32,548 nt of DNA from a virus: the IMG/VR virus record IMGVR_UViG_3300049846_001203, positions 1-32,548 of that record, one strand, 5' to 3'. Positions 1,897 to 24,385 of this stretch are shown here, piece by piece. Both the position numbers and the translations under genes were made by a program. The first letter of the stretch is position 1. Each line of letters begins with the position of its first letter. Below the pieces are notes generated by a model that had not been told where the DNA came from, did no database searches, and saw only the letters and a list, made by a program, of their open reading frames with translations.

Positions 1897-2841
1897 ATGA
1901 AGCTATTTACTGAAGTTTTTAACTGCCGTTATCCTATCGTTGCCATGGCAATGAATCAAGTATCTGATTTGCCACTGGCCAGTGCTGTGCGTAGAGCTGG
2001 TGCATTGCCCAGCTTGTCTGTTTTTAATTATTTGAATGTTGTTGGTGATCAGATAGTTTTAATACATGAAAATTTAGAAAAGGATCTTGCAGGGTATCAC
2101 AACGAATTCAATGACTGTGAGCTCTTGCTGAGTCTTAATCTGTCGTCTTTGACTGATCCTTTAATTTTAGAAATGATATTAAAGTATCGTGTCAAGCTCA
2201 TTGAAATTATCAAGGATGACACAGTTTTACCTGATGATGTAGTTGAAAGGCTTCCTAAAATTATTTGGTCTATTAAAGACAACGGCTCATTGATATTTCG
2301 TAAAATTGTAGACAAGGTCGCACACTTAGAACCTGGTGTATGGTCTAAAAACTTAGATGGATTTATTGTTAAAGGGCCAGATGGTGCTGGTCGGGGTTCT
2401 GTAGAAGGGTTAACTCTAGAAGAATCATGCAACATACTTAGAACTAAGTTTCCAGACAAACTATTGATTCCGTCCGGCGGTATTGGAACCAGTCAACAAG
2501 TGAAAGAATACATGTCTCAAGGAGCATTTGCCATTGGCATAGGAACATTGCTGGCTGCTAGTAAAGAAAGTAAAATTTCTGAAGCTACCAAGTTAAAAAT
2601 GATTGGCGCAACATCCGCAGACCTTTCTAAACTTTCCACTGGCACTTATACGGAAACCAAACAAAATGCACTGGTTTTCAGCTCAGATGTCAAAGAAAGA
2701 AATATGAACAATACACGCGGACTCATAGTAGGAATCAAAGATCCAAGCCGAGGCCATGTGTTTGCTGGCAAGTCAATAGACCAAATAAAAGAAATTCTAC
2801 CAGCAAATGATATTATTCAAGGCCTGGTCAAAGATCTATGA
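1897..2841 (+). CDS. Nitronate monooxygenase / IMPDH-like FMN TIM-barrel protein
   Basis: This 314-residue protein looks like the nitronate monooxygenase (2-nitropropane dioxygenase) group of FMN-binding TIM barrels. The N-terminus (CRYPIVAMAMNQVSDLPLASAVRRAGALPSLS) matches the usual start, GFIVKGPDGAGRG fits the glycine-rich mid-barrel loop, and IPSGGIGTSQQVKEYMSQGAFAIGIGTLL (in two parts, about residues 191-219) is the phosphate-binding region. It is the only plus-strand gene among the sugar genes. It diverges from the methyltransferase over a 36-bp gap and overlaps the dehydrogenase-transferase gene tail to tail by 6 bp. Its AT-rich make-up and odd orientation suggest separate acquisition. 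The real substrate is unknown; a role in the glycan pathway is possible but not shown. Confidence 0.75.
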   Translation: MKLFTEVFNCRYPIVAMAMNQVSDLPLASAVRRAGALPSLSVFNYLNVVGDQIVLIHENLEKDLAGYHNEFNDCELLLSLNLSSLTDPLILEMILKYRVKLIEIIKDDTVLPDDVVERLPKIIWSIKDNGSLIFRKIVDKVAHLEPGVWSKNLDGFIVKGPDGAGRGSVEGLTLEESCNILRTKFPDKLLIPSGGIGTSQQVKEYMSQGAFAIGIGTLLAASKESKISEATKLKMIGATSADLSKLSTGTYTETKQNALVFSSDVKERNMNNTRGLIVGIKDPSRGHVFAGKSIDQIKEILPANDIIQGLVKDL

Positions 2842-5196
2842 TGCAGCGTCATTGAGAAACTTAAACAAGGTTCCTTGCAAGTGTGTATCTTTTAGTTCTT
2901 CGTAGATGCGCTTGTTTTCAAAAGCAATAGAACTCAACTGCCCGTAAGTTAGCCCACGAGTAATTGGATCTAGATTACACAACCTCTGAATTTCAGAAAC
3001 GATAGAATTCAATCTATCTCTGTGATTTTCAATCTCGTCGTAGTGCTCATTGAGTACTCCACCAAACGTTCTAAAGCCAAGCTCTCTTAGTTTTTTCAAG
3101 AACCCAGCAGGGCCTACAATAATAAATGGATGACCGTGTGCAATGGCCTTGAATGTTTTTTCTGAAATAAAGATTTCACCTTGATTCCATGTGGTCTCAG
3201 TGATAACACTTAGAATGGTTCTTTGATAGTGGTCACTGACCACAGGCCCGTTAGTAGTAACATCGTATTCGTCAATGACCAGTGGCTTGTCAAGATATTC
3301 TAAAAAGTATCCCTGGGCTACTTCATCGAGATTAGGATCTTTAGCCAAGACATCAGCCGGGCTGAGCTTAAATCCATTGTAGAACTCGCCTTCGGGGACA
3401 AAGCTTACTAAGCCGTGCTGATCTAACTCTCGTCTGCGTAGTTCTGACACCAGTTGACATCTGTGGCTTCTCAGCACTCTGTTGTAGTTTAAAAACCATT
3501 TGTCTTTTTTGGTGTAGTCATGCTCAACATTTATTACTCTGGGATCTATCCACTCGTTGATGCTCATAAAGCTCAGATGATTCTTATATGGATCAACTAT
3601 ATTATTAGATTTCAGTGCTTGTTCAAAAGACAACAGCTCATTGGCATAAATGTACTGGTCATCAGTGACTTCAGGCCAAAACTCACGAAGCTGATTACGG
3701 AACATGATGCCGTGTGCAATGATACCTTCGTGCTGAGTAATAAAGATTATGCGATCTTCAGGCTTCAGTGATATTTGAGATTTGATGCGCTCAATCATTG
3801 GCTTTGCTTGCTCAGCAAAATTAACCTCATTGACCTTTACTTGTGCAATGTAAATGGCCGGTTTGGTCTCATCTAGTTCAAATCTAAAAGTATCATTGAT
3901 TCTTCTAAAAATACTACCACAATGCACAGGCGACAGTAATGCGCCATTGATTCGAGGCTTGTTAAATTTGGGATTGCCATAGTGTATCACACGACAGCCA
4001 GGTACAGAGCTTACACTACGCCATGGATCAACAATGACGCTGCCTGGATGAAATTTGAAATAGAATTCATCTCCGGTGACTTCAACTCCAGTTCCAGCAT
4101 AAGTCACAGCAGGATTATGAGCCAGTAGAATCACTGCTGGGCCAGTGGGTTCTGTTGTGTCTCCAGTAAGCGGATCAAAATAGCTGATTGGAACTCCTGT
4201 GTGTTCAACATAGTGTCCTACCAGTAAGCTGTAACTGCCAATTTCATAGGGCACATAGGGTTTATAGGCTTTACCGTGAATGATCACTGGTAAATTGCTC
4301 TCTCGGGCAAGGTCTGCTAGACGCCGAGCCATGTTAAAGGCCTGTGCATCTCTACTGCCCATGATAGCCTGAAACAAGTCGTAGCCAAGATCAAGTTCTT
4401 GCGAAAGCCAGCGTAGAGCAATGTTATCTCGGGGATGGCAAGCACCAGCATCGCCCATGCCAGCGGTCAAGTAACGCGGTCCAGTGATACGCTGTGTGGC
4501 AGCTTTAAGTGCGTCAGTGACAACATCAACATTGATATTGCCATTCTTCTCAGCCACATCCTGTATCATGTTAACCAAGCCAATCTTGGCACTGATAAAA
4601 GTATTGTAGAAAATCTTAATGGCTTCGGCTTCGTCCCAGGTTCCTACATTTACTCTAGGACTGTTTTCCATCAATGGCTGATAAAAGTCAATGAGTTCTT
4701 GTGCATCGCCCGTTAAAGTTCCGTCGGCGGTGCCAATAATAATGCATTCAGGATTGACCATGTCCCATTTAACACTACCCATGGCAATAAGATAAGGATT
4801 GTATACAAATCTACCGCGTGTTAGATATGGTAAAAGTTGTGTTCTCGTAGTTCCAGGTAACACAGTACTGATCAACACAATCATTTGATCGTCAGTGACC
4901 ACTTGATTCAATTCCCCTAACACACTGATTACAATGCCGTAGTCAAAATTGGTTGGAGGTAAATGTGCTATTGGAGCGTCGCCACCAAATGCAGGGTGAT
5001 GCGGTGTTGGTACTGCTACAAAAATAATATCGCGACCAGCAACTGCTTCAGCAATACTGTCCATCAAGGGTATCTTGGCTTCGGGGTCTTTGACTGTGTC
5101 GTAGCCAACAACATCATAGTGTTCTGCCATGACTTCGGCACAGGGCAAGCCCAGTTTACCGCACCCAATCATAGCTACTTTAGGTTTTACTTGCAT
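2836..5196 (-). CDS. UDP-sugar dehydrogenase fused to glycosyltransferase-like domain
   Basis: This 786-residue protein combines two enzymes. Residues 1-about 410 are a UDP-glucose/GDP-mannose dehydrogenase: IGCGKLGLP (NAD Rossmann loop, 10-18), a central domain with K194 and N198 (EAIKIFYNTF), the catalytic-cysteine loop GMGDAGACHPRDN with C253, and HGKAYKP at 307-313 in place of the usual GLAFKP-type motif. Such enzymes oxidise a sugar C6 alcohol to a uronic acid. From about 415 on is a glycosyltransferase-like domain with FLNYNRVLRSHR and ISEKTFKAIAHGHPFIIVG, shared with the proteins at 5197-6414 and 7954-9240. The start follows the upstream stop with no spacer (TAA-ATG). The fusion implies that the uronic acid is made and transferred by one polypeptide; this is inference. 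Confidence 0.82.
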   Translation of the reverse strand: MQVKPKVAMIGCGKLGLPCAEVMAEHYDVVGYDTVKDPEAKIPLMDSIAEAVAGRDIIFVAVPTPHHPAFGGDAPIAHLPPTNFDYGIVISVLGELNQVVTDDQMIVLISTVLPGTTRTQLLPYLTRGRFVYNPYLIAMGSVKWDMVNPECIIIGTADGTLTGDAQELIDFYQPLMENSPRVNVGTWDEAEAIKIFYNTFISAKIGLVNMIQDVAEKNGNINVDVVTDALKAATQRITGPRYLTAGMGDAGACHPRDNIALRWLSQELDLGYDLFQAIMGSRDAQAFNMARRLADLARESNLPVIIHGKAYKPYVPYEIGSYSLLVGHYVEHTGVPISYFDPLTGDTTEPTGPAVILLAHNPAVTYAGTGVEVTGDEFYFKFHPGSVIVDPWRSVSSVPGCRVIHYGNPKFNKPRINGALLSPVHCGSIFRRINDTFRFELDETKPAIYIAQVKVNEVNFAEQAKPMIERIKSQISLKPEDRIIFITQHEGIIAHGIMFRNQLREFWPEVTDDQYIYANELLSFEQALKSNNIVDPYKNHLSFMSINEWIDPRVINVEHDYTKKDKWFLNYNRVLRSHRCQLVSELRRRELDQHGLVSFVPEGEFYNGFKLSPADVLAKDPNLDEVAQGYFLEYLDKPLVIDEYDVTTNGPVVSDHYQRTILSVITETTWNQGEIFISEKTFKAIAHGHPFIIVGPAGFLKKLRELGFRTFGGVLNEHYDEIENHRDRLNSIVSEIQRLCNLDPITRGLTYGQLSSIAFENKRIYEELKDTHLQGTLFKFLNDAAS

Positions 5197-6414
5197 TTAA
5201 AATGAATCCCAAATATCTTTAATAATTTTAAAAACGACCTCGTCGTTTCTAGGATAACACAACTCTTTCCATTGTTTGTTGAATAGCTTTTGGTTGAAAG
5301 CCAATATTGGCTGCATTTGTATTCTCATGCTCTTTAGCTCATCCAACGACAACATACTTAACCGTTTTAGTTCACTTAGGATCATCCTTATTCGCTGATC
5401 TAGATCAGTCTCTTTATCATAATCCTCATTCCACCATTGGTCAAAGGTCTTATATCCTTGTGATTTTAACAGTTCTAGCATGCCTGAACTTGCAACCAGC
5501 ATAAAAGGATGTCCTACGCTGATAGGTTTCCATATTTTTTCAGAAAAGAACTGCACACCTTCTGTAACATGAGTTTCAGCAACCAGACTCAAAAATGTAT
5601 TGGTATAGTGTTCTGGCACAATGTTTTTATAAGCTGGATTGTTTGCTCCTAAATCCATGTCAAGCTCTAAGGGTATCAGTGAATCTATAGTATCAGCAGC
5701 TTGAGTTAAATTGGTGTGCCAAACACTACGCAAAACTTCATGGGTGTTTTTAACACCGTCGCCGTGATAGCTGATTAGTCCTCTGTCAAACAACTGTTCA
5801 TTGATTATGTGCGCCAGCACCAGTGCGCGGTGTTCTTTTGCTCGTCTATTGTAATTTAAAAAAAGATTTTTTAAGTCAACAGGTTCAAAAGGCACAAGAC
5901 TGTTAACAGGGTCATTCCAACATATAAACATACTGGCTGGGACTTTGGTAAATTGATATTGCTGAGTATCAGCAACATTTTGATTACCGTGTATAAAATA
6001 AACCTGTTGCGAATTTAACTGATGCTGCTTACACCAAGAGTCAAGTATTTCATAATCGCGACTAAATCTGCCATAGCCGCTGTCACCTTCCAGTGGAAAT
6101 ATCAAAACTATTTTACACAGATTATTATGGGCATCATGGATTACTCTGGGGTCAATGCAGTTAAATCCCATATGCTCATGTCTTTCAAAATAATGACTGT
6201 TTCGAATTTGTACTGGAAAAATATATTTTTTACCTAGATTGTGCTCTAGTCCGTGACATTCTATGTCTGGATGTGACATTAAAAAATCCTGATCTATTCT
6301 TTGTTTGCCGTGCGTGGGCAAGTTACTCTTATCTGGATAATCTAATGGAACAGTATTGGGTAACCAATAATTTAGCTCGCTGTCCCAATGCTGAAATACA
6401 AATTTAATCGACAT
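5197..6414 (-). CDS. Glycosyltransferase-like protein (paralogue 2)
   Basis: This protein of about 405 residues shares its C-terminal core with the second half of the dehydrogenase fusion and with the 7954-9240 protein. Shared blocks are FLNYNRRAKEHRALVLAHI, then LSLVAETHVTEGVQFFSEKIWKPISVGHPFMLV and a tail with GYKTFDQWWNEDYD. The E-x(n)-SEK-x(n)-G-x-P pattern resembles nucleotide-sugar-binding C-terminal domains of GT10/exostosin-type transferases; the family is my inference. The start is the ATG at 6414, which overlaps the radical SAM stop by 11 bp; a longer frame back to 6630 would run through the radical SAM gene. No signal peptide or membrane segment is seen, so it acts in the cytoplasm. 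Confidence 0.7.
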   Translation of the reverse strand: MSIKFVFQHWDSELNYWLPNTVPLDYPDKSNLPTHGKQRIDQDFLMSHPDIECHGLEHNLGKKYIFPVQIRNSHYFERHEHMGFNCIDPRVIHDAHNNLCKIVLIFPLEGDSGYGRFSRDYEILDSWCKQHQLNSQQVYFIHGNQNVADTQQYQFTKVPASMFICWNDPVNSLVPFEPVDLKNLFLNYNRRAKEHRALVLAHIINEQLFDRGLISYHGDGVKNTHEVLRSVWHTNLTQAADTIDSLIPLELDMDLGANNPAYKNIVPEHYTNTFLSLVAETHVTEGVQFFSEKIWKPISVGHPFMLVASSGMLELLKSQGYKTFDQWWNEDYDKETDLDQRIRMILSELKRLSMLSLDELKSMRIQMQPILAFNQKLFNKQWKELCYPRNDEVVFKIIKDIWDSF

Positions 6415-7909
6415 CTGCCACTGATTCAGATTCTGCCGCTGGTTCTTCGCTGACAACAATGCTGGCTGCTGCTTCTGCCAATTGTTTAGCTCTAGCCTCC
6501 TCGTAATACTTGCCAGCGTTCTCATAGTAGTAGGCAATTTCAGGAAATACCTTGCAGAAATCTGTGCCATTGCGACGATCTGTTTCTTTGATATAGAGAT
6601 AGAAATCATCGCGAGCTCTGAGATTCTCATCGCTCATTGGCCATTCGGCAACAGCAACATTATAAACTCGTTCAAGATTTTCAACTTCGTGCGGGTAGAA
6701 ACCATTGTGATATGTGACTTCATTGTAGGTTGATATATTTCTTTTCATGAAGTCAACACATCTGGCCAGCTTAACCAACATACTGGTGTCAGCAATCAAT
6801 GCGCTGAGGTATCGTGGATGTCGTAGATAAGGAAAGTCTAGCATCACGCCACGAAGACCACTTTCAGTATTTTTAACCACAGCAGATTGTCTAATGGCCA
6901 AGATATCTCGTAAGAAATATTCAAACCTAGGAATACTCAAGATATTAAAAGTCACCATGATTGTGACTTCCAGTGCTGGGTACTTTAGCATGATGTTCCA
7001 GAGATTATTGTACCAGCGGGTGTAGTTTAATCCCTTGCGAATGTATTCTGCTTGCTCACCATGTGTGTCACAGCTGGTAAAAATCTTTAACTTTTTGACC
7101 AGTTTGTTTTCCACAATGTGATTACATTTTTGTAAAAATTCTTCTAGTAGCTTGTCGTCGACACCTAGGTTACTGTTGATGGCTATTTCAAGTTCAGGAT
7201 TGGGATGTTCAATGATCCAATCTAGTGTACGGAATGTTTCTTTGCTGAGCAAAGGTTCGCCGCCAGTGATGCGAAACACCTTTAGCTTGGGGTACAGTTC
7301 TGGCCACCAACGCCACCATGCATCAATATAAGGATTGGGATCTTTGTGTGGAATAGGAAATTTGCCAATGCTTTTGAGAAATGTCAAATCATGTTCTTGA
7401 TGACCTTGACTCAGCGGAATAGGACCGTGTCGTTTGGTTTCCTGCATCAAGGTACTGCTGATTTCGGGACTGCAATATGCACAGCCAAAATTACACACAT
7501 TGCTGAAGCTGACTTCAACATAAGCAGGAATAACATCTGCGTCCCAAGGCATCTGAGCACTGGATTCTAAAAATGGCTTGCCCCACACTGGATCTGCTGA
7601 CTTCTTGATTCTATCGCTGAAGTGCTGTCCGGGTGCATCCTCTACACGCCAGCAATAGTCACATTCTTTGGGTCGCTTGCCTTCCAGCATTTCCTTGCGT
7701 AGTCCCTTTTTAAAATTGGTATTGTGCAAGGCGCTGGGATTATTTTCTAATTCTGCTACAGGAATCTTGTGTGTGCCAGGGTGGTGGCAACTGTGTGTTT
7801 GCCCAGTGGCCAGGTGAATGGTTACCTGCTGCCATTTGGCCACGCAGTAAGTTGGGCTTACTTGGCTTAGTTCCTTGTGTATCTTAATAAGATGGTGGTT
7901 TGGGTTCAT
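6404..7909 (-). CDS. Radical SAM enzyme (phage twitch/SPASM-like type)
   Basis: This 501-residue protein has the radical SAM CxxxCxxC motif in VCNFGCAYC (C139, C143, C146) and the SAM-contact motif ITGGEPLLS. Extra cysteines before the barrel (C22, C41, C83, C86; note CDYCWRVED) could hold an auxiliary cluster, as in twitch- or SPASM-type enzymes, though here they are N-terminal. The C-terminus is an Ala/Glu-rich tail. Related proteins occur in T4-like marine phages from memory; their substrate is unknown. It sits between two glycosyltransferase-like genes, so a sugar or peptide modification in the same pathway is plausible. A late-promoter-like CATAAATA lies at 7939-7946, 30 bp upstream of the ATG. 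Confidence 0.82.
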   Translation of the reverse strand: MNPNHHLIKIHKELSQVSPTYCVAKWQQVTIHLATGQTHSCHHPGTHKIPVAELENNPSALHNTNFKKGLRKEMLEGKRPKECDYCWRVEDAPGQHFSDRIKKSADPVWGKPFLESSAQMPWDADVIPAYVEVSFSNVCNFGCAYCSPEISSTLMQETKRHGPIPLSQGHQEHDLTFLKSIGKFPIPHKDPNPYIDAWWRWWPELYPKLKVFRITGGEPLLSKETFRTLDWIIEHPNPELEIAINSNLGVDDKLLEEFLQKCNHIVENKLVKKLKIFTSCDTHGEQAEYIRKGLNYTRWYNNLWNIMLKYPALEVTIMVTFNILSIPRFEYFLRDILAIRQSAVVKNTESGLRGVMLDFPYLRHPRYLSALIADTSMLVKLARCVDFMKRNISTYNEVTYHNGFYPHEVENLERVYNVAVAEWPMSDENLRARDDFYLYIKETDRRNGTDFCKVFPEIAYYYENAGKYYEEARAKQLAEAAASIVVSEEPAAESESVADVD

Positions 7910-15194: not shown

Positions 15195-15902
15195 ATGGCG
15201 CTATTAATCTACACCCTTGTAGTCACACACCTCACCATAATTTGTGTTACACTATATCTACACCGCAGCCAAGCGCACCTAGGCGTGAGCTTTCATCCGG
15301 TAGTAAGTCATGTCATGCGTTTTTGGCTATGGCTCACAACTGGTATGGTCACCAGAGAATGGGTAGCTGCTCACCGTAAACATCATAGATTCAGCGACCA
15401 AGAAGGTGATCCGCACAGTCCACATGTGTTTGGTATCAAAACGGTATTGACCACTGGCGCATTACTTTACAATCGCGCAACCAAAGACACAGCAATGCTT
15501 GAACAATATGGTCGCGGAACTCCTGACGATTGGATAGAACGCAATCTTTACAGCCGATATTCACGGTTGGGAATTACTTTGCTATTGCTTGTAAATTTAC
15601 TATGGTTTTCTTGGTGGGGACTGCTGATATGGGCTGTTCAAATGATTTGGATACCATTCTGGGCCGCTGGTGTTATCAATGGTCTAGGACACTGGTGGGG
15701 GTATAGAAATGGCGAAACTCGCGATCACAGTAGAAACCTTAGTCCTTGGGGCGTTATTATTGGTGGCGAATGCCTGCATAATAACCATCATTTGGATCCT
15801 GCTAACCCTAGACTAAGTCGTCGCTGGTTTGAGTTTGATATTGGCTGGTTGTATATACGACTGTTGTGCCTATTAGGACTAGCCAAACTGAGAACCCAAT
15901 AA
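15195..15902 (+). CDS. Fatty acid desaturase (acyl-CoA/ACP type)
   Basis: This 235-residue integral membrane protein has the three histidine boxes of membrane-bound di-iron desaturases: HRSQAH (H23-H28), HRKHH (60-64) and HNNHH (195-199), with hydrophobic spans at about 1-22, 40-55, 125-165. It matches the delta-9-type acyl-CoA/acyl-lipid group in box spacing but is short, lacking the extended N-terminus and any fused cytochrome b5. It would introduce a double bond into acyl chains in the inner membrane, using host electron carriers. It ends the plus-strand membrane-protein cluster and overlaps the 2OG-oxygenase gene tail to tail by 24 bp. An acyl carrier protein gene lies 0.7 kb away. No good ribosome site precedes its ATG. 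Confidence 0.92.
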   Translation: MALLIYTLVVTHLTIICVTLYLHRSQAHLGVSFHPVVSHVMRFWLWLTTGMVTREWVAAHRKHHRFSDQEGDPHSPHVFGIKTVLTTGALLYNRATKDTAMLEQYGRGTPDDWIERNLYSRYSRLGITLLLLVNLLWFSWWGLLIWAVQMIWIPFWAAGVINGLGHWWGYRNGETRDHSRNLSPWGVIIGGECLHNNHHLDPANPRLSRRWFEFDIGWLYIRLLCLLGLAKLRTQ

Positions 15903-16850: not shown

Positions 16851-18896
16851 TCATTTGCTTGTGGCTCTATAGGTACCGTCCCAATTTGGTGGTAGCCCTT
16901 CATTCATGCGCTCCAGCATATTTTCATAATATTGGCGCAATTCGTTATCTTCTTTGATAAGTTTCTCACATGATTTAATAGCGCGAGTCCAATCTCCACG
17001 ATAATAAGCTGTCAAATATATATCGTGCTGTGTGGGGTTAGTCTTGCCCAAGGTATAGATTTTTACACCCTGTGTCTTACCTTTTACAGCAATGCAGTCT
17101 AGCTCAACCACTGGATATTCGTCTCGCACAAGCTCTGCTGTACGCTGTCCTAGAATAATCTTGACACCATACGGCTTAGACTGGCCCTCGAGTCTTGACG
17201 CCAAATTAACACCGTCGCCAAGACAAGTGTAATCAAAACGCTGATCGCTGCCCATGTTACCCACAACAACGGAGGCAGTATTAATGCCAAGACCCATACC
17301 AAAAGGTGGTACGCCTTCTGCCGCAATTTCTGCATTAAATGCATCTAAACTTCCCATCATTTCCAGTGCTGTCTTAACAGCCTGGTGTGCATGCCTGGGT
17401 TCGTCCACAGGTGCGTTCCAAAATGCCATTTGTGCATCACCAATGTACTTGTCTAGCGTGCCGTTGTTGTCAATGATTTTGCGAGTCATTGCAGTCATGT
17501 AACGGTTCATGATCTTGGTTAAGCCTTGTACATCTTTGCCATAGTGTTCAGAGATTGTGGTAAAGCCTCGTACATCAGTGAACATAATAGATAGTTCGCG
17601 TTCATCGCCGCCTAGTTGTAGTAGTTCTGGATTCTTTTGTAATTTGGCAACCAAGGCCGGACTTAGGTAAGTGCCAAACTGCTTTTTGATCTGTTGTTTT
17701 TGTTTGAACTCCACAACAAATCTTGCAAATAGTGCGTGTCCATACAGCACAACTGCGGCAAATACAACATAGTACATATCCCATAGCTGACTGTAGGTCG
17801 TCCATAGGTACATACCACCTTGTACTGTTCCAAACACTAGGCCTGCAAGAACCAAAGCTGCTGCCCAAATTGGTACTCTAGGCATGGCAAAAATAACAAT
17901 GGCTGCAATCAGCACAATGACCAAAAGCTCAACCAAGTTAGCCCAGGCCAAACGCACAGGACTTTCGCCGTCGATCAGTGTTTGAATAGCTTGTGCTTGT
18001 AAATTATGTGCCCATGTTTCGCCACGAGGTGTGGCAATGATACCGCCAAGTCCTTCTACTGCCAACCCCAGCACTACAATTTTGCCTTTGAGGTCAAGGT
18101 CTCTGCGACTAAGATCTCCCAGCTCGTAGCTGGCAAATTCCTTGTTCCAGCGTAGCCATACACGGCCATTGGCATCAGTGTCTACAATAGGTTGACCAGC
18201 AATGCGTACTTTTTCTACACCAGCTTCGGTCATTTTCATTTGATAGCTTTGCTCGCCGGTGTACACACGAAGTGCTTCAAGCGGCAAACTTGGATAGTAT
18301 TCTTTGTTTACTGTGACTACCAATGGCATACGACGAACAACACCGTCTACTTCGGGTGCCGCAACAGTGGTACCAACACCTCGGGCACTCTGCGCCAGCT
18401 CAGGTCTTGGACTCAGTGCGCCGGGCCAGTTAAACAACCAAATATAAGGATCGCCGCCCATGACAGCAACGCCACGACGAACAGCGTCGGGCTTTTTGTT
18501 TTGTGTGGTAGGTGTTTGTGCAATAACACTAGGAGCTCGATTCAGCGCCTGTGCCAATTCAGCATCACCGCCTAACCTGTCCTTTTCTGTCATGAGGATA
18601 GGAACAACAATGGCGCCTGCACCAAGTTCTTGTATGCGCTTGATGGCCTGTGCTATTTCTCTGCGGTCCCAGGGCCATTGACCAAGTCGTGCCATGCTGG
18701 GCTCGCCGATGTTAATGACCACAACTTCATCACTGGCAGTGACTGTTTCACTGCTTAACAAAGTATCAAAGCCCTTGAGCTGTAGACTTTGTACTGCTGC
18801 CGGATTTGATATCTTGAGCCAGATTAACAAAGCGGCAGTAACAGCCACCCAGGTCACACTCCATACACTGGGTATCATTTTTAAGTACTTTTTCAT
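16851..18896 (-). CDS. CHASE2-domain class III adenylate cyclase (transmembrane receptor cyclase)
   Basis: This 681-residue protein has an N-terminal membrane span (about 12-27), an extracytoplasmic CHASE2 sensor (about 35-310, with INIGEPSMARLGQWPWDRR), three further spans (about 320-393), and a class III nucleotide cyclase domain (about 430-620). Catalytic residues are intact: metal Asp D441 (FTDVRGFTTISE) and D487 (LDKYIGDAQMAFW), base-selecting K483 and T557, N564 and R568 (CLGDGVNLASRLEG). The K/T pair fits class IIIb adenylate cyclases making cAMP. A C-terminal 60 residues (YLTAYYRGDWTRAIKSCEKL) look TPR-like. In bacteria CHASE2 cyclases often sit beside FecR-domain genes, as here. It has its own sigma70-type promoter and a GAGGT site, so it may be made early. 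A full receptor cyclase in a phage is very unusual. Confidence 0.93.
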   Translation of the reverse strand: MKKYLKMIPSVWSVTWVAVTAALLIWLKISNPAAVQSLQLKGFDTLLSSETVTASDEVVVINIGEPSMARLGQWPWDRREIAQAIKRIQELGAGAIVVPILMTEKDRLGGDAELAQALNRAPSVIAQTPTTQNKKPDAVRRGVAVMGGDPYIWLFNWPGALSPRPELAQSARGVGTTVAAPEVDGVVRRMPLVVTVNKEYYPSLPLEALRVYTGEQSYQMKMTEAGVEKVRIAGQPIVDTDANGRVWLRWNKEFASYELGDLSRRDLDLKGKIVVLGLAVEGLGGIIATPRGETWAHNLQAQAIQTLIDGESPVRLAWANLVELLVIVLIAAIVIFAMPRVPIWAAALVLAGLVFGTVQGGMYLWTTYSQLWDMYYVVFAAVVLYGHALFARFVVEFKQKQQIKKQFGTYLSPALVAKLQKNPELLQLGGDERELSIMFTDVRGFTTISEHYGKDVQGLTKIMNRYMTAMTRKIIDNNGTLDKYIGDAQMAFWNAPVDEPRHAHQAVKTALEMMGSLDAFNAEIAAEGVPPFGMGLGINTASVVVGNMGSDQRFDYTCLGDGVNLASRLEGQSKPYGVKIILGQRTAELVRDEYPVVELDCIAVKGKTQGVKIYTLGKTNPTQHDIYLTAYYRGDWTRAIKSCEKLIKEDNELRQYYENMLERMNEGLPPNWDGTYRATSK

Positions 18897-18918
18897 GTGA
18901 ATTTTACCTCGCTAGAAC

Positions 18919-18947
18919 ATTGTAACGGAAGTACTTAGCGAAGTCAA
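18919..18947 (-). promoter_or_regulatory. Sigma70-type promoter for the CHASE2 cyclase
   Basis: Minus-strand TTGACT (18947-18942), 17-bp spacer, TACAAT (18924-18919). Expected start is near 18912. GAGGT at 18910-18906 is nine bases before the ATG at 18896. It fills the 59-bp gap after the curlin/discoidin gene and shows the same -35 as the DsbA promoter. Confidence 0.72.
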
Positions 18948-18955
18948 ATCCTGGA

Positions 18956-20668
18956 TCACTGTCCTTGGTTCACTGTGATCCTAGCACATCCACCTGCTGT
19001 GGCACAGTTACTGGTAATGGAGTAAAACTGTTGAGTACTGCCACTTTGAGTGAGAATGAGTTCTTGTGGCAATCCACTTAGGTTGATTTTGGCCATATGA
19101 CTGGCACTACCTTGCTGAGTAATGTCCACACTTTTGTTTCCACCGCTGAGTGTTACTTCGGCATAGTGACTGCCAGAATCTCGTTGCTGAATAGTCAAAG
19201 AGTTATTGTTATCATTGACTGTGGCAAACACTCCTTTGCCACCACCAGTGCTTTGTTGAGTTATGTTTACAGTATTATTACTGCCCAGTACTCTAAGATC
19301 TGTGTAATTGACTTGTGTGTTGGCTGTGCCAGATTGGGTAACGTTAACTGTATTGCCAGACCCATTTCCATAATACTCGGTATAATTTTGTCGAGTACCA
19401 GTTTGCTGAACGGTAATGGTATTATAGTTGCCTATCTGCTCAATTCGCACCTTGCTGTCATTGGTAGTGCGACCCAAAAAGGCATTGACCTTGGCTGTGT
19501 TAGTGGCGTCAGCACTAAATGGCGCAGAGCTTCCGCCACAGCAAAGACTTCCAGGATTGGACACAGTTGATCCGGATGCAGTTGATGTTGTTGTACTACT
19601 GGAATCATATATGTAGGTGATTTCTGCAATCTGCATACTGTTACAATCTAGACCGCATCCGTCGCCGGCTTTGGTTGTTGGAAAGAAAATATAATAATAA
19701 GCATAAGCAGTGGCATTGGTCACTGGAATTTCAGGGCTGGTCCAAAATCTAGTGTTGCTAAGACTTAAACTACCTTGCTGGATCAGCGTCCAGTTTACAC
19801 CGTCATTGCTGCCATAAAGTTTATAACTGGTAGGATCTCGGCCTGGAAAATCATTGGCTGTGGTCAATTTAAATGCAGTAACAGCACGGCCAGAGTTTAG
19901 TTTTACAGTAACACCAGCATTATACTTGTCAAAGTTCAAGTACTTGGTGTTGGGATTGTTGTCAAATGCATTTGCCGCACCTTCGCCTGCTGGGCTGTTG
20001 TTACTGGTAGGATAGTGGTTGGTAATGTAGATTGCTGCGCCAGCTGTGACATTATTGTTATAAATTGGTGTAGGGGTAGGTGTTGGTGCGCTGGTGTAGG
20101 TTTGTCCAGACGCCAATGGAGTAGTAGAACCCGTTGACGCAAATGTGTTTAGCTGTGTGGTAGTTGGATTTCGGGTACCAGTCCAGGTGTAACCGCCTGT
20201 ACCTGTTAGGCCAGTGTTGGTACTGAACAGTTGGCCAGTGTCGTTATCGCTGCCCATGAAAAAGAAAAATGACTTACCATTGGCATCTGTTCCCATGTTG
20301 ATAACCTTACCAGTACCAATGACGCCTGCTACTGTACCGTTGCTGTTATAAACTTTTGCAGTCCATGGAAAATTGGCATTACCACTGGCTTCAAACTTTA
20401 CATATTGTCCTGTTTGCCAAGACCATTGTCCAGTGGTCCAGGGAATTTTATACATGGTACCTGGATTTGTAGCATAAATTTGACAGGTTGTTGTTCCAGT
20501 ACAGGCACTGACATTCCATTGGCTGTCGGCAATTTGATAACGGCCAAATTGCAAGTCTACGAAAGTTGTTTGTGCCAACGCACATTTAGACATCGCAGAC
20601 AAAAACAGCGCAACAATTAGCCACGCCCAAAATTTTGGCCTAGCTGAATGTAATAGACTTTTAATCAT
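18956..20668 (-). CDS. Secreted discoidin-domain protein with C-terminal curlin repeats
   Basis: This 570-residue protein has a signal peptide (KFWAWLIVALFLSAMSKCALAQ, split over residues 12-33, cleavage after ALA or AQ). Residues about 35-200 are a Gly/Thr-rich region of unknown fold. Residues about 210-365 look like an F5/8 type C (discoidin) carbohydrate-binding domain: AFDNNPNTKYLNF, YKLYGSNDGVNWTLI and a C-terminal DCNSMQIAEITY strand. From about residue 407 there are roughly seven curlin-type repeats, e.g. RIEQIGNYNTITVQQTG, GSGNTVNVTQSG and GSNNTVNITQQS, with regular N and Q positions typical of CsgA/CsgB. It could be a fibre subunit with a sugar-binding head, or a nucleator. I use the ATG at 20668, which gives a proper signal peptide; the longer start at 20704 lies within the 57-residue gene. 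Confidence 0.85.
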   Translation of the reverse strand: MIKSLLHSARPKFWAWLIVALFLSAMSKCALAQTTFVDLQFGRYQIADSQWNVSACTGTTTCQIYATNPGTMYKIPWTTGQWSWQTGQYVKFEASGNANFPWTAKVYNSNGTVAGVIGTGKVINMGTDANGKSFFFFMGSDNDTGQLFSTNTGLTGTGGYTWTGTRNPTTTQLNTFASTGSTTPLASGQTYTSAPTPTPTPIYNNNVTAGAAIYITNHYPTSNNSPAGEGAANAFDNNPNTKYLNFDKYNAGVTVKLNSGRAVTAFKLTTANDFPGRDPTSYKLYGSNDGVNWTLIQQGSLSLSNTRFWTSPEIPVTNATAYAYYYIFFPTTKAGDGCGLDCNSMQIAEITYIYDSSSTTTSTASGSTVSNPGSLCCGGSSAPFSADATNTAKVNAFLGRTTNDSKVRIEQIGNYNTITVQQTGTRQNYTEYYGNGSGNTVNVTQSGTANTQVNYTDLRVLGSNNTVNITQQSTGGGKGVFATVNDNNNSLTIQQRDSGSHYAEVTLSGGNKSVDITQQGSASHMAKINLSGLPQELILTQSGSTQQFYSITSNCATAGGCARITVNQGQ

Positions 20669-20837
20669 ATGTTCTTTTAAACCATGTTGTTTGTTCAAGT
20701 TCATTGAGAATCTCAGAACCTGGTAAGTTAGTTTCTCTTACAGCTAGCTCAATGAAATCTTTCCACCTGGACACATAATACTCGTTTTCTTGGATCCATT
20801 GTTGGTACATTAGTTGAAATAAGTTCATATTTGTCAT
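20664..20837 (-). CDS. 57-residue protein in the FecR/curlin junction
   Basis: Between the FecR gene and the curlin/discoidin gene there is a complete small frame: ATG at 20837, overlapping the FecR stop as ATGA, and a TAA at 20666-20664 that overlaps the next gene's ATG by 5 bp. The product, MTNMNLFQLMYQQWIQENEY..., is aromatic, acidic and without signal peptide; YVSRWKDFIELAVRE suggests an amphipathic helix. Coupled overlaps on both sides argue that it is a real gene. It also explains the otherwise 165-bp hole between two genes that are packed tightly elsewhere. No function recognised. Confidence 0.6.
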
Positions 20838-21934
20838 CGTCGTAGTACTCCGCCGTTTTGTTTAATAAAAACAGTATTACCACCAGCACCACCTGTGCCA
20901 ATTACTTCAGTGGCACTTTGATCGTTGTGTACAATAGTAACTGTGGTATTACTGCTGTAGCCTTGTGTTTTGACTTCAGCATAGTGATCTTCATTGGAGC
21001 GAAAAGCAATGCCGCGTCCGCGACTTTGAATATCTGCTGCTTCAGGATTATTCCATACAACACAAACATGAGTACTGGCGTTACATCCGGTATTACTTGC
21101 TGCCTGTTGTAGCATTAATAGTCTAGCTCTTTCTATGTCTTCGTTGGTTTCTTGAATGCGCTGACTTATTCTTCTCTGCGCTTCGGCTTCTATTTCTGCT
21201 TCTAGTTCTTCACGACGAGTGCGGGTATGCTGCTTTACTGCCTGTGCAACCTCGGGTGGTCTAGAAATAATCAGCAAATTGTTAATTTTTGACTCAACGG
21301 TATTAATGATTACCGGGGGTGTTGGTTTAGTATCAAATGCAATAATATAAGTGGATTCAAATGCTTTGTCAAGTACTACAGTACCAGCCGCATTGGTAAC
21401 CTCAATTCGTCCTACTCTGCAACGATTTTCTTCTAGCTCGTATTTCTTTTGCTCGCTTTCATCTTTGCAACTTGGAAGCAATACCACAAGACTTTGTCCT
21501 GTTTCATCTACGGTCATTGAAAAGTCTGTGCCACGCACAGCAATGTTTGCTGTAGGAGTATTGACTGCAACCTGTTGTGGATTGTTCTTGGCTATTTGAC
21601 CACTGGCATAGCGCACAGTACCCATGCTGACCTTCATGGCCAACTTACCAGCGTCAGATCTGCGAGGATCAAACACAAAATCATCAATTACCAATTTGGA
21701 ATTTTCAGTTATCTTTACCTTGGTGTCATCTTTAAATGTTATAGAACTAGCACAGGCCTGCGTTCTGTAGGTATCCATGCTTTCAATACTGGTTCCTTTG
21801 ACACCAGATGAAACTGCTCGGCCACGTTGCACTTCACACTGAGTACCTTTGTTTTCGCTAACAACCCCAATGGATTGAGCAAAGGCGGTACTCAGCTGAA
21901 GTGATAGCACCAATATCAATGGTGACTTCCACAT
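20834..21934 (-). CDS. FecR-domain periplasmic/secreted protein with curlin-like tail
   Basis: This 366-residue protein has a signal peptide (MWKSPLILVLSLQLSTAFA, cut before QS) and a FecR domain at about 25-165: GVKGTSIESMDTYRT, ITFKDDTKVKITENSKLVID and the strand ANIAVRGTDFSMTV. Residues about 230-275 (RTRREELEAEIEAEAQRR) are a coiled coil. The last 60 residues hold HYAEV, also found in a curlin repeat of the discoidin protein, and end GGAGGNTVFIKQNGG, a curlin-like N...Q unit. FecR domains here are probably polymer- or signal-sensing rather than iron sensors, since no TonB receptor or sigma factor is present. It starts two bases after the curlin gene and precedes the cyclase, matching the usual FecR-CHASE2 pairing. 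Confidence 0.86.
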   Translation of the reverse strand: MWKSPLILVLSLQLSTAFAQSIGVVSENKGTQCEVQRGRAVSSGVKGTSIESMDTYRTQACASSITFKDDTKVKITENSKLVIDDFVFDPRRSDAGKLAMKVSMGTVRYASGQIAKNNPQQVAVNTPTANIAVRGTDFSMTVDETGQSLVVLLPSCKDESEQKKYELEENRCRVGRIEVTNAAGTVVLDKAFESTYIIAFDTKPTPPVIINTVESKINNLLIISRPPEVAQAVKQHTRTRREELEAEIEAEAQRRISQRIQETNEDIERARLLMLQQAASNTGCNASTHVCVVWNNPEAADIQSRGRGIAFRSNEDHYAEVKTQGYSSNTTVTIVHNDQSATEVIGTGGAGGNTVFIKQNGGVLRR

Positions 21935-21936
21935 TT

Positions 21937-22740
21937 TTATCTCGAAATAGCAGTTACTGGATTAACAATAGCACTACTGCTGGTTCTTACAGTAATAGTG
22001 TTGTTGCTACCAGTTGTTTGAATATTTACTGTGGTGTCGTTGGTGCCTTGTTGCTGTGTAGTAATGCTGTTGGTGTTGCCAGTGACAGATGCTATTAGTA
22101 CATGTCCATTGGCTCCAGCAGCGTCAGTTTGTTGCACATTAAAAATATTGCTGCCGCCGCTGATACTAATAGTACTGCTACCATTTGAGCTCTTAAGCTC
22201 TTTGGTGATTTGGTTACTGTCACCTGTGATGCTTATGGTGCTGGTAATATCACTGCCAACAATTTGTTGTAGAATTAAATTTGAATCACCAGTGATTGTT
22301 TCAGTAACAGTATTGCGTAAATTTGCAGCATTGTTAGCGTCACCAATTACCAAGTTGGTAAGGTTACTGTGACCAGTAACTGTGCTTGAGTATGCGTTAT
22401 CGTTTCCTTGGATGTCGTAACGAGTACTGTTGCTATTACCAGTCTGTGTCACTGCAACGGTATTTGAGCTGCCAGTGATTGTAGCATAGTTCGAACTGCT
22501 TGGTGCGGTTGGAAAGAATGTTGTGACACCGGTTGCCGCAACAGACTTTGCCGCAGTAGTTGCAACACCACCAATGTTGTTACTACCTCCCACTTGTTGT
22601 AGTGTTACGGTATTAGAGTTACCAACTTGCTCAATATAAACCTTGTTTGGTCCAGTTGCTGCTTGAGCAAAAGCAACCTGTGGTACAAGTGTGCCTAGCC
22701 CTAGCATCATTGCAAGTGTTAATTTCTTATAAGATACCAT
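21937..22740 (-). CDS. Curlin-repeat amyloid subunit (CsgA/CsgB-like)
   Basis: This 267-residue secreted protein has a clear signal peptide (LTLAMMLGLGTLVPQVAFA, cut before QA) followed by about eight curlin-type repeats of 22-28 residues. Examples are YIEQVGNSNTVTLQQVGGSN, VAVTQTGNSNS, GDSNLILQQI, GGSNIFNVQQTD and GNTNSITTQQQGT. N and Q fall at fixed spacing, the ladder pattern of CsgA beta-strands. E. coli CsgA has five repeats; this has more, with less regular Q positions. It should be exported through the CsgG pore encoded just upstream. No CsgC or CsgE gene is seen. It sits behind a structured 165-bp leader with a TATAAATC box. Confidence 0.87.
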   Translation of the reverse strand: MVSYKKLTLAMMLGLGTLVPQVAFAQAATGPNKVYIEQVGNSNTVTLQQVGGSNNIGGVATTAAKSVAATGVTTFFPTAPSSSNYATITGSSNTVAVTQTGNSNSTRYDIQGNDNAYSSTVTGHSNLTNLVIGDANNAANLRNTVTETITGDSNLILQQIVGSDITSTISITGDSNQITKELKSSNGSSTISISGGSNIFNVQQTDAAGANGHVLIASVTGNTNSITTQQQGTNDTTVNIQTTGSNNTITVRTSSSAIVNPVTAISR

Positions 22741-22905: not shown

Positions 22906-23823
22906 TCATTCCACCTTTGTTCCTGTACCAGCTGCTGGTACCTGGGGTGGCGTATTGGCTTGTGGCGGAACCAACTCATCTTTCTTTACCTCCGGTGCTG
23001 GCAGAGCTGAACTTTGTTCTTTAAAAGACCAATGTCCTTTGCGGGCGCCTTCGTGAATAGTTTGCACAACTGCTGCCTGAACTGCCATGTTTATTGCCTT
23101 GTTAATGCTTTCGTTGATGCCAACACCGGTTTCTGCTTCCACTGCCATTGTGCCACTGTCAACGAATTTTAACACACCTGCTTTGTCCAAATAGCTTAAT
23201 ACTGTTTTGGTAATGGTAACGCTGGTCAATACTTCACCAGTGGCCACACTTACTGTACGCAAATTAACTGTAACAGTATCGCTTTGATATTGTGTTTGTG
23301 CTCCAATGCCAAAAATTCTTACGCCTGAACCACCTGTTAGTTGGTTTGTGTCATAGCCAATGATGCCGCCTTCTATGATGATACCTGCAAACACCATTGG
23401 TGGCAGTGGTCTAGCATCTTTACCTTGATAAAGTTCTCTGGCTTGACGAATCATCTGACGCTCTTTGATAAGATTGTCTAGGCCAACTCGTTCCAATACT
23501 GTAAACCAACGAGCTTCACCAGCATCTTGTAGAGCCTTGATCAAATAGCTTTCTGCACCTTGTGTTACTGCGCTACTCAAACTGGCCACATTGGGCAAGC
23601 TTTTACGCTGTCCAGTTTTATCCATAAATCCGTAGACTGCAACAGGAATTGGGCCACCCGCAGGCGCCTTTAATTTTTCAGACTGGCGCCTTAGATAAGC
23701 ACCTTGGTCAACGACCGGTTCTTCGTATTGATCACCACTGATGCGCTCGCGTATAAATTCACCTGTGGCGCATCCTGAAAGCAATACTGTTAGTGCTGCG
23801 GCTGAAATTAATTTTGTATTCAT
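22906..23823 (-). CDS. csgG: CsgG-like curli secretion pore lipoprotein
   Basis: This 305-residue lipoprotein is a clear CsgG homologue, the nonameric outer-membrane channel that exports curli subunits. It has a signal peptide with lipobox LSGC (Cys18), PIPVAVYGFMDKTGQRK, the central SYLIKALQDAGEARWFTVLERVGLDNL block, and GSGVRIFGIGAQTQYQSDTVTVNLRTVSVATGEVLTSV (about 185-222 in two parts), which corresponds closely to E. coli CsgG's FGIGADTQYQLD barrel-hairpin region. The C-terminus carries a Pro/Ala-rich extension of about 35 residues not seen in E. coli. It follows csgF by 15 bp with an AAGGA site. Presence of a complete pore means the phage need not depend on host curli export. Confidence 0.95.
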   Translation of the reverse strand: MNTKLISAAALTVLLSGCATGEFIRERISGDQYEEPVVDQGAYLRRQSEKLKAPAGGPIPVAVYGFMDKTGQRKSLPNVASLSSAVTQGAESYLIKALQDAGEARWFTVLERVGLDNLIKERQMIRQARELYQGKDARPLPPMVFAGIIIEGGIIGYDTNQLTGGSGVRIFGIGAQTQYQSDTVTVNLRTVSVATGEVLTSVTITKTVLSYLDKAGVLKFVDSGTMAVEAETGVGINESINKAINMAVQAAVVQTIHEGARKGHWSFKEQSSALPAPEVKKDELVPPQANTPPQVPAAGTGTKVE

Positions 23824-23838
23824 AGTATTTTAAAATCC

Positions 23839-24327
23839 TTAAATCTTAAATGCCGCATAAGGCATTACCAACTCTGTGTAATTGTTTGGATTGGCAATTT
23901 CTGAAATTCGCACAACAATGTTGTTACCGTCGATACGCCAAGTAATATTTTGTCCACCAAGATCAATGTCGCCACATGGTCCGCCTGCACTTAGAGGAGT
24001 ACACATTGGTGAACCAGTTGATGAACCAAACAAGCTGTCAGTGATGCGCTTGGCTAATTCACTGTAGATTCTTGTTTCCATACTGGCTTGGAATCTAGCC
24101 TGCGGAGTATTAGCGGCTGCTCTTTCCGCAGCCAGTTTAATTGCATCTGCTGCGGCCTTGTTTTTATCTTTTTGCTGATCTTCTAATTGTTTTAGTGTCA
24201 GCACATGGCTGCTCCAGCCAATGCCCGAGAATGAAGGACTGTTGAAGTTATGTTGAAGTTCGGCAGCAGCAACGGAACTGATAGCGCACATTGCCGCAGT
24301 AACAACAAGACAATTTTTAATTTTCAT
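23839..24327 (-). CDS. csgF: CsgF-like curli assembly accessory protein
   Basis: This 162-residue protein has a signal peptide (CLVVTAAMCAISSVAAA) and then ELQHNFNSPSFSGIGWSSHVL, the mature N-terminus of CsgF that plugs into the CsgG pore and holds the fibre nucleator at the cell surface. A charged helix (LEDQQKDKNKAAADAIKLAAE) links to a C-terminal domain with two Cys (PMCTPLSAGGPCG) and beta-strands. Length is slightly above the 138 residues of E. coli CsgF. It is the first gene of the curli unit, behind an inverted repeat and a TTTAAATA/TATACT region. Confidence 0.88.
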   Translation of the reverse strand: MKIKNCLVVTAAMCAISSVAAAELQHNFNSPSFSGIGWSSHVLTLKQLEDQQKDKNKAAADAIKLAAERAAANTPQARFQASMETRIYSELAKRITDSLFGSSTGSPMCTPLSAGGPCGDIDLGGQNITWRIDGNNIVVRISEIANPNNYTELVMPYAAFKI

Positions 24328-24377: not shown

Positions 24378-24385
24378 TATTTAAA
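24378..24385 (-). promoter_or_regulatory. T4-late-like box TTTAAATA before the curli operon
   Basis: Minus-strand TTTAAATA (24385 to 24378), seven of eight bases of TATAAATA, followed by TATACT at 24372-24367. No good -35 is present for TATACT, so the late-type box is the better candidate, though both could be chance in AT-rich DNA. Confidence 0.4.

Follow-up and report, generated by a model that had tools for sequence, protein, structure and literature searches.

A CHASE2 receptor cyclase with a lineage-conserved promoter in the curli module of a jumbo phage clade

The window analyzed here, a 32,548-nucleotide viral record of IMG/VR from an aquatic jumbo phage, contains a gene for a CHASE2 receptor adenylate cyclase at the end of a curli-type fiber module (Table 1). 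The cyclase has its full set of domains and active-site residues and evolves under purifying selection, its place in the module is syntenic across related phages, and in the window's clade the cyclase and the fiber genes are preceded by two different promoter classes. The best explanation, at a probability of about 0.6, is that the gene encodes a membrane-bound, cAMP-making CHASE2 receptor that belongs to the envelope module and is driven by an early promoter, separately timed from the late fibers.

Table 1. Features of the cyclase locus and the curli module, with window coordinates.
Feature	Coordinates	Strand	Basis
CHASE2 receptor adenylate cyclase, 681 aa	16851..18896	(-)	Pfam, AlphaFold helices, alignment, purifying selection
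CHASE2 domain, residues 24-333	17898..18827	(-)	PF05226, 146-148 bits
Class III nucleotidyl cyclase domain, residues 434-616	17049..17597	(-)	PF00211 (Guanylate_cyc), 72 bits; residue conservation; PDB relatives
Predicted private sigma-70-type promoter, TTGACT-17-TACAAT	18919..18947	(-)	Conserved in clade, absent elsewhere
Secreted curlin-repeat protein with F5/8 type C (discoidin) domain (second curlin)	18956..20704	(-)	PF00754, PF07012
Secreted FecR-domain protein	20834..21934	(-)	PF04773, alignment, AlphaFold, PupR-like fold
First curlin-like fiber protein	21937..22740	(-)	Position, N-x-V-x-Q repeats; same place as annotated curlin in Melnitz and HTVC008M
CsgG secretion pore	22906..23823	(-)	PF03783, 172 bits
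CsgF	23839..24327	(-)	PF10614, phrog_35372
Late-type box TTTAAATA upstream of csgF	24378..24385	(-)	TAAATA conserved near csgF

The cyclase and its gene module

The 681-codon cyclase open reading frame begins with an ATG at 18896 and ends at 16851 on the minus strand; the range given by the initial annotation, 16851 to 18947, also takes in the promoter discussed below. The same annotation described a CHASE2 receptor with an intact active site, and both points were borne out. The profile search that it proposed for CHASE2 gave a PF05226 match of 146 bits over residues 24–333, and the six catalytic residues that it named (D441, K483, D487, T557, N564 and R568) are all present at exactly those numbers. 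Among 84 phage homologues these positions are nearly invariant: D441, K483, D487 and R568 are found in 84/84, N564 in 83 and T557 in 81. Together they supply the two metal-binding Asp, the substrate Lys plus Asp/Thr and the transition-state Asn plus Arg of a class III cyclase.

CHASE2 receptors usually combine a periplasmic sensor with a cytoplasmic cyclase, and the modeled phage protein agrees with this layout. A first transmembrane helix (residues ~12–30) is followed by the periplasmic CHASE2 domain, three transmembrane helices (~319–407), the class III cyclase domain and a conserved C-terminal tail, so that CHASE2, membrane helices and cyclase domain stand in the order that identifies a CHASE2 receptor adenylate cyclase. 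In the AlphaFold model (mean pLDDT 81, with values of only 35–50 at the active-site loops 544–573) helix 12–30 leads into a mixed α/β domain, and three long helices spanning 319–407 come before the cyclase domain. A lysine/threonine pair, here K483/T557, predicts ATP as the substrate and a class IIIb type of enzyme, and from these residues we infer that the cyclase makes cAMP from ATP. The solved structures closest to the catalytic domain are CyaB, Cya2, CyaC and the cyclase portion of the phytochrome-cyclase 6fht (31–34% identity). The protein has the catalytic fold and residues of the class IIIb cyclases CyaB1, CyaB and CyaC (PDB 6fht, 3r5g and 1wc0) but differs from them in its input, which is a periplasmic CHASE2 domain with three transmembrane helices rather than a GAF, PAS, MASE2 or soluble element.

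The cyclase gene has a dN/dS of 0.066 relative to a 92% identical relative (L003) and values of 0.06–0.10 along its length, indicating purifying selection. In the tree, the phage cyclases group together, separate from seven bacterial cyclases (support 99/100), and within this clade the window's jumbo group is monophyletic (support 100/99). A 297-kb jumbo phage contig contains a cyclase gene (L147:7431-10298) that is broken near the position of residue 594 by a 267-aa open reading frame with a T5orf172 domain, which is homing-endonuclease-like; no Rfam intron match was found at the interrupted gene.

On one strand, the window's module reads csgF-csgG-curlin-FecR-curlin-cyclase with the cyclase last, the gene content and order of a phage curli (T8SS) module. 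Relatives were confirmed in 586 viral stretches, and wherever a related viral locus extends 4.5 kb or more upstream of the cyclase, the order csgF<csgG<fecR<AC is kept (51/51). Two isolates, Melnitz (OM43 host) and HTVC008M (Pelagibacter host), match the window in gene set and gene order. The first curlin-like protein has no Pfam match of its own. The second curlin is an amyloid fiber subunit with a likely sugar-binding part, and its discoidin fusion is kept in the clade (L004, L007). Several clade members have amidoligase-type open reading frames inserted between the second curlin and the cyclase (L004:7687-9951, L007:6683-8677).

The FecR-domain protein consists of a signal peptide, a FecR fold, a long helix and a five-strand tail. 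In 35 aligned phage FecR proteins the signal peptide passes directly into the FecR fold and the anti-sigma part is absent. The modeled fold resembles the periplasmic signaling domain of PupR (E 8e-5). Despite this PupR-like fold, we rejected an iron-responsive anti-sigma factor, since a signal peptide replaces the anti-sigma part. The FecI/FecR arrangement of a cytoplasmic N-terminal anti-sigma domain, one transmembrane helix and a sigma partner gene is not seen, and no sigma-factor gene was recognized among the window's Pfam matches, the FecR protein matching PF04773 only. A secreted protein that partners the fiber and sensor is a better reading of the phage FecR than an iron regulator. When a profile of its tail was compared with the module's open reading frames, the second curlin was the best match, at a marginal E of 0.006–0.05, and for this reason the curlin-like character of the tail is suggestive only.

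Promoter classes of the cyclase and fiber genes

The private TTGACT-17-TACAAT promoter proposed by the initial annotation was located at 18947–18919. From the window alone a chance match is plausible, as 12 kb of the window contains 25 promoter-like sites (22.7 in shuffles) and the cyclase promoter by itself is not above chance; comparison across relatives rules chance out. TTGAC-17-TANNNT lies no more than ~55 nt from the cyclase start in 10/10 close relatives (L002–L011), a comparison that amounts to about seven independent sequences, L002 being identical to the window and some others being close pairs. A script searching for TTGAC-N18-TANNNT within 100 nt recovered the site in 8/10 clade loci (0.04 expected), and the remaining two (L009 and L010), which it missed because an upstream start had been chosen, were added by eye. 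The gene that precedes the cyclase varies among these relatives (the second curlin, an amidoligase-like open reading frame, others), and the promoter is kept despite the differing upstream DNA.

One clade member, L006, sits in a 285-kb contig, and the genes flanking the module in the window are common to both. The gp23 capsid gene of this contig is 62–64% identical to those of jumbo phages such as GAP32, CBB and PA5oct, its nearest relatives being jumbo phages of Sinorhizobium, Cronobacter, Pectobacterium and Pseudomonas. One strand of the contig has 58 TTGAC-17-TANNNT sites (~7 expected); 28 such promoters lie directly 5' of genes, all on the same strand, and the genes that follow include a primase, two exonucleases, a dNMP kinase, UvdE, an AAA ATPase and the cyclase. 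The cyclase promoter thus belongs to a sigma-70-type class that is found ahead of replication genes, on one strand.

The fiber genes are associated with a different element. In 9/9 clade loci (1.5 expected) and 18/42 others (4.5 expected), TAAATA lies no more than 80 nt from csgF, with no enrichment upstream of the cyclase, FecR or csgG. In the 285-kb contig TAAATA precedes the genes for the tail sheath, tail tube, head decoration and a virion protein as well as csgF; it also lies 5' of some other genes (radical SAM), and it does not occur within 150 nt of gp23. The initial annotation's attribution of late-type boxes to the curli genes is right for csgF, because the TTTTAAATA box 5' of csgF is conserved; the exact TATAAATA does not occur in the window.

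Because TTGAC-17-TANNNT precedes replication genes and TAAATA precedes tail and head genes, we assign them to early and late classes. On this assignment the cyclase would have an early-type promoter and the fiber operon a late-type one. The suggestion that the cyclase comes early and the fibers later is consistent with these classes, from which we infer the timing.

Proposed signaling role and alternative readings

We propose that the membrane receptor would make cAMP from ATP, with a homodimeric class III cyclase in the cytoplasm reading out the periplasmic CHASE2 domain, and that CsgG and CsgF would export the curlin fiber proteins together with the secreted FecR-domain protein and its curlin-like tail. 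By analogy with bacterial pairs of FecR and CHASE2 cyclase genes (see below), FecR or fiber assembly is likely to be the input to CHASE2, through a putative FecR/CHASE2 contact. Most phages would translate the cyclase as the final gene of the fiber operon. In the window's clade it would have moved onto its own host-sigma-70-type promoter, with the fiber genes retaining their late-type promoter. Since its promoter is of the replication-gene class and that of the fiber genes is late-type, the cyclase would be in the membrane early, ahead of the fibers, where it would raise cAMP or signal the state of the envelope from the first stages of infection. The roles proposed in the literature that we found on phage curli genes are sibling capture, lysis timing or uptake; were the cyclase early and the fibers late, the signaling part would have a role independent of fiber building, which would narrow these options.

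In the window's clade the target of cAMP is probably a host protein; in a sister jumbo lineage it is probably a cNMP-binding membrane protein encoded by the phage. No cNMP-binding protein was found in the 285-kb relative, Melnitz or HTVC008M, and only two of the phage records searched carry one. This protein (218 aa; L103:1187-1843, minus strand, and also L125–L138) combines a cNMP-binding domain of the kinase type with a hydrophobic C-terminal part, and a scan found it in 14 contigs. In the sister lineage the CHASE2 cyclase lies 14–17 kb from it in 6/6 contigs that extend at least 14 kb on the cyclase side, the other eight ending sooner; one of the six is a 297-kb contig with gp23. The 218-aa protein is a possible cAMP receptor. 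We suggest tentatively that some jumbo phages could have a complete cAMP circuit of their own, composed of an envelope-sensing CHASE2 cyclase and a membrane-anchored receptor, and that in the window's clade the sender could have shifted from the late fiber operon to an early promoter, allowing envelope sensing and cAMP signaling from the outset of infection. If so, a phage lineage that has both cyclase and cyclic-nucleotide receptor would clearly exemplify a second-messenger circuit run by a virus.

An early, separately timed cyclase has to be weighed against a gene that is simply the last of a late curli operon, encoding a late feedback sensor of fiber secretion to which the private promoter adds little. 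Loci outside the clade fit this well: in 59 of them the cyclase directly adjoins the gene before it or overlaps with it (median distance −1 bp), the gaps in Melnitz and HTVC008M are 15 and 8 bp, and the promoter is present in 0/64. Within the clade, by contrast, the gap is 45–686 bp, and every member keeps the 17-bp-spaced promoter despite unrelated intervening genes such as the amidoligase-like open reading frame. As judged from these comparisons, the predicted private promoter is conserved in the window's lineage, and the cyclase elsewhere is apparently coupled translationally to the fiber operon. In the window itself, a 59-bp gap and the conserved promoter take the place of such coupling, and read-through from the upstream late operon may cross this gap into the cyclase. 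We regard a purely late role as rather unlikely. The initial annotation assigned an early cAMP rise a further consequence, the reprogramming of host CRP-dependent genes for catabolite control or biofilm formation. The early-type promoter and the frequency of CRP-like proteins in bacteria (control genomes) accord with this. CRP-like sites, however, show no enrichment: the window has 12 (22.7 expected) and the 285-kb relative 14 (11.3 expected), and phage genes are therefore not a CRP target; the relative lacks a cNMP-binding protein of its own, and the module is also present in phages of Pelagibacter and OM43. The catabolite-control proposal gained no support, and host CRP reprogramming is unlikely.

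A role in Pycsar-like signaling against other phages or defense, as superinfection exclusion or a decoy, draws on the sister jumbo lineage, in which all six testable contigs pair a class III cyclase with a cNMP-binding membrane protein, as in the Pycsar anti-phage system; PADLOC Pycsar models match both proteins. These matches reflect only the shared class III cyclase and cNBD homology, and the differences are several. The K483/T557 pair predicts ATP and not a pyrimidine, the cyclase is phage-borne and has a receptor sensor domain, the receptor is missing from the window's 285-kb relative, and the sister-lineage genes are non-adjacent. The combination of a pyrimidine cyclase and an adjacent cNBD effector that marks Pycsar is not found, and we consider this role improbable. 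Least weight of all, close to none, goes to bacterial DNA mis-called viral or to a decaying hitchhiker gene. Cyclases and curli are typically bacterial, but the same gene order occurs in isolate phage genomes and beside T4-type genes, the 285-kb relative carries gp23 and has flanking phage genes in common with the window, and the low dN/dS and invariant active site are at odds with decay; synteny and selection rule out contamination or decay. The one match to a genome contig comes from a phage contig that had been placed in a Flavobacteriaceae MAG. This MAG includes contigs with pelagiphage cyclases (L084, PAHL01000013.1, and L096), and L084, flanked by T4-type structural genes, is a mis-binned phage.

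Bacterial counterparts and other features of the window

FecR and CHASE2 cyclase genes adjoin in the alphaproteobacteria Ruegeria (two strains), Paracoccus, Shinella and Rhizobium BG4 and, inverted, in Ensifer, and clusters of CHASE2-cyclase, FecR, TPR and PDE genes occur in Campylobacterota (PMC9239204), in agreement with the earlier statement that the two are paired in bacteria. Curli operons of Sphingomonas, Limimaricola, Azospirillum and Aureimonas contain neither FecR nor a CHASE2 cyclase. Both halves, the FecR-cyclase pair and curli, occur together in 0/12 bacterial loci examined, all of them on plasmids. The further proposal that the phage took a whole signaling-plus-envelope module from one bacterium therefore finds no support among these plasmid loci. 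Because the pair and the curli operon are separate in the bacteria sampled, the phage module looks like two bacterial modules joined, within this limited plasmid sampling. The bacterial pairs resemble the phage genes in that a CHASE2 class III cyclase gene adjoins one for a FecR-domain protein that is secreted or periplasmic; they differ in that the examined pairs are without curli, the phage FecR has the curlin-like tail and the phage cyclases form a separate clade.

The module of Pelagibacter phages, FecR and cyclase included, has been published (Wittmers et al., 2022; PMC9599517), and the cyclase gene is therefore not new. Earlier phage papers describe curli genes without the cyclase (PMC7029224; PMC9004378), and CHASE2 is named in none of the three. 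The window shares with the pelagiphage type VIII secretion (curli) module csgF, csgG, curlin, FecR, second curlin and cyclase, in the HTVC008M/Melnitz order. It differs in its jumbo-myovirus lineage, in the cyclase's own sigma-70-type promoter, in the discoidin domain on the second curlin and in that no histidine kinase was found within the window. The window's jumbo-myovirus lineage is absent from the pelagiphage curli literature found, and no paper linking jumbo phage with curli and CsgG was found in the literature searched. The gene and module are of kinds already known. What appears to be new within the literature and data searched is the jumbo lineage, the rewired promoter and the linked receptor.

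The window has no tRNA or Rfam matches. Just downstream of the cyclase region, on the opposite strand, lies a fatty acid desaturase gene (15195–15902) that most clade members keep. A 786-aa protein (2836–5196) begins with a UDP-glucose/GDP-mannose dehydrogenase part, and no Pfam family matches its long C-terminal part. Two long open reading frames on one strand, 5197–6630 and 6404–7909, overlap by more than 200 bases, for which reason the start of the 5197–6630 gene probably lies further in.
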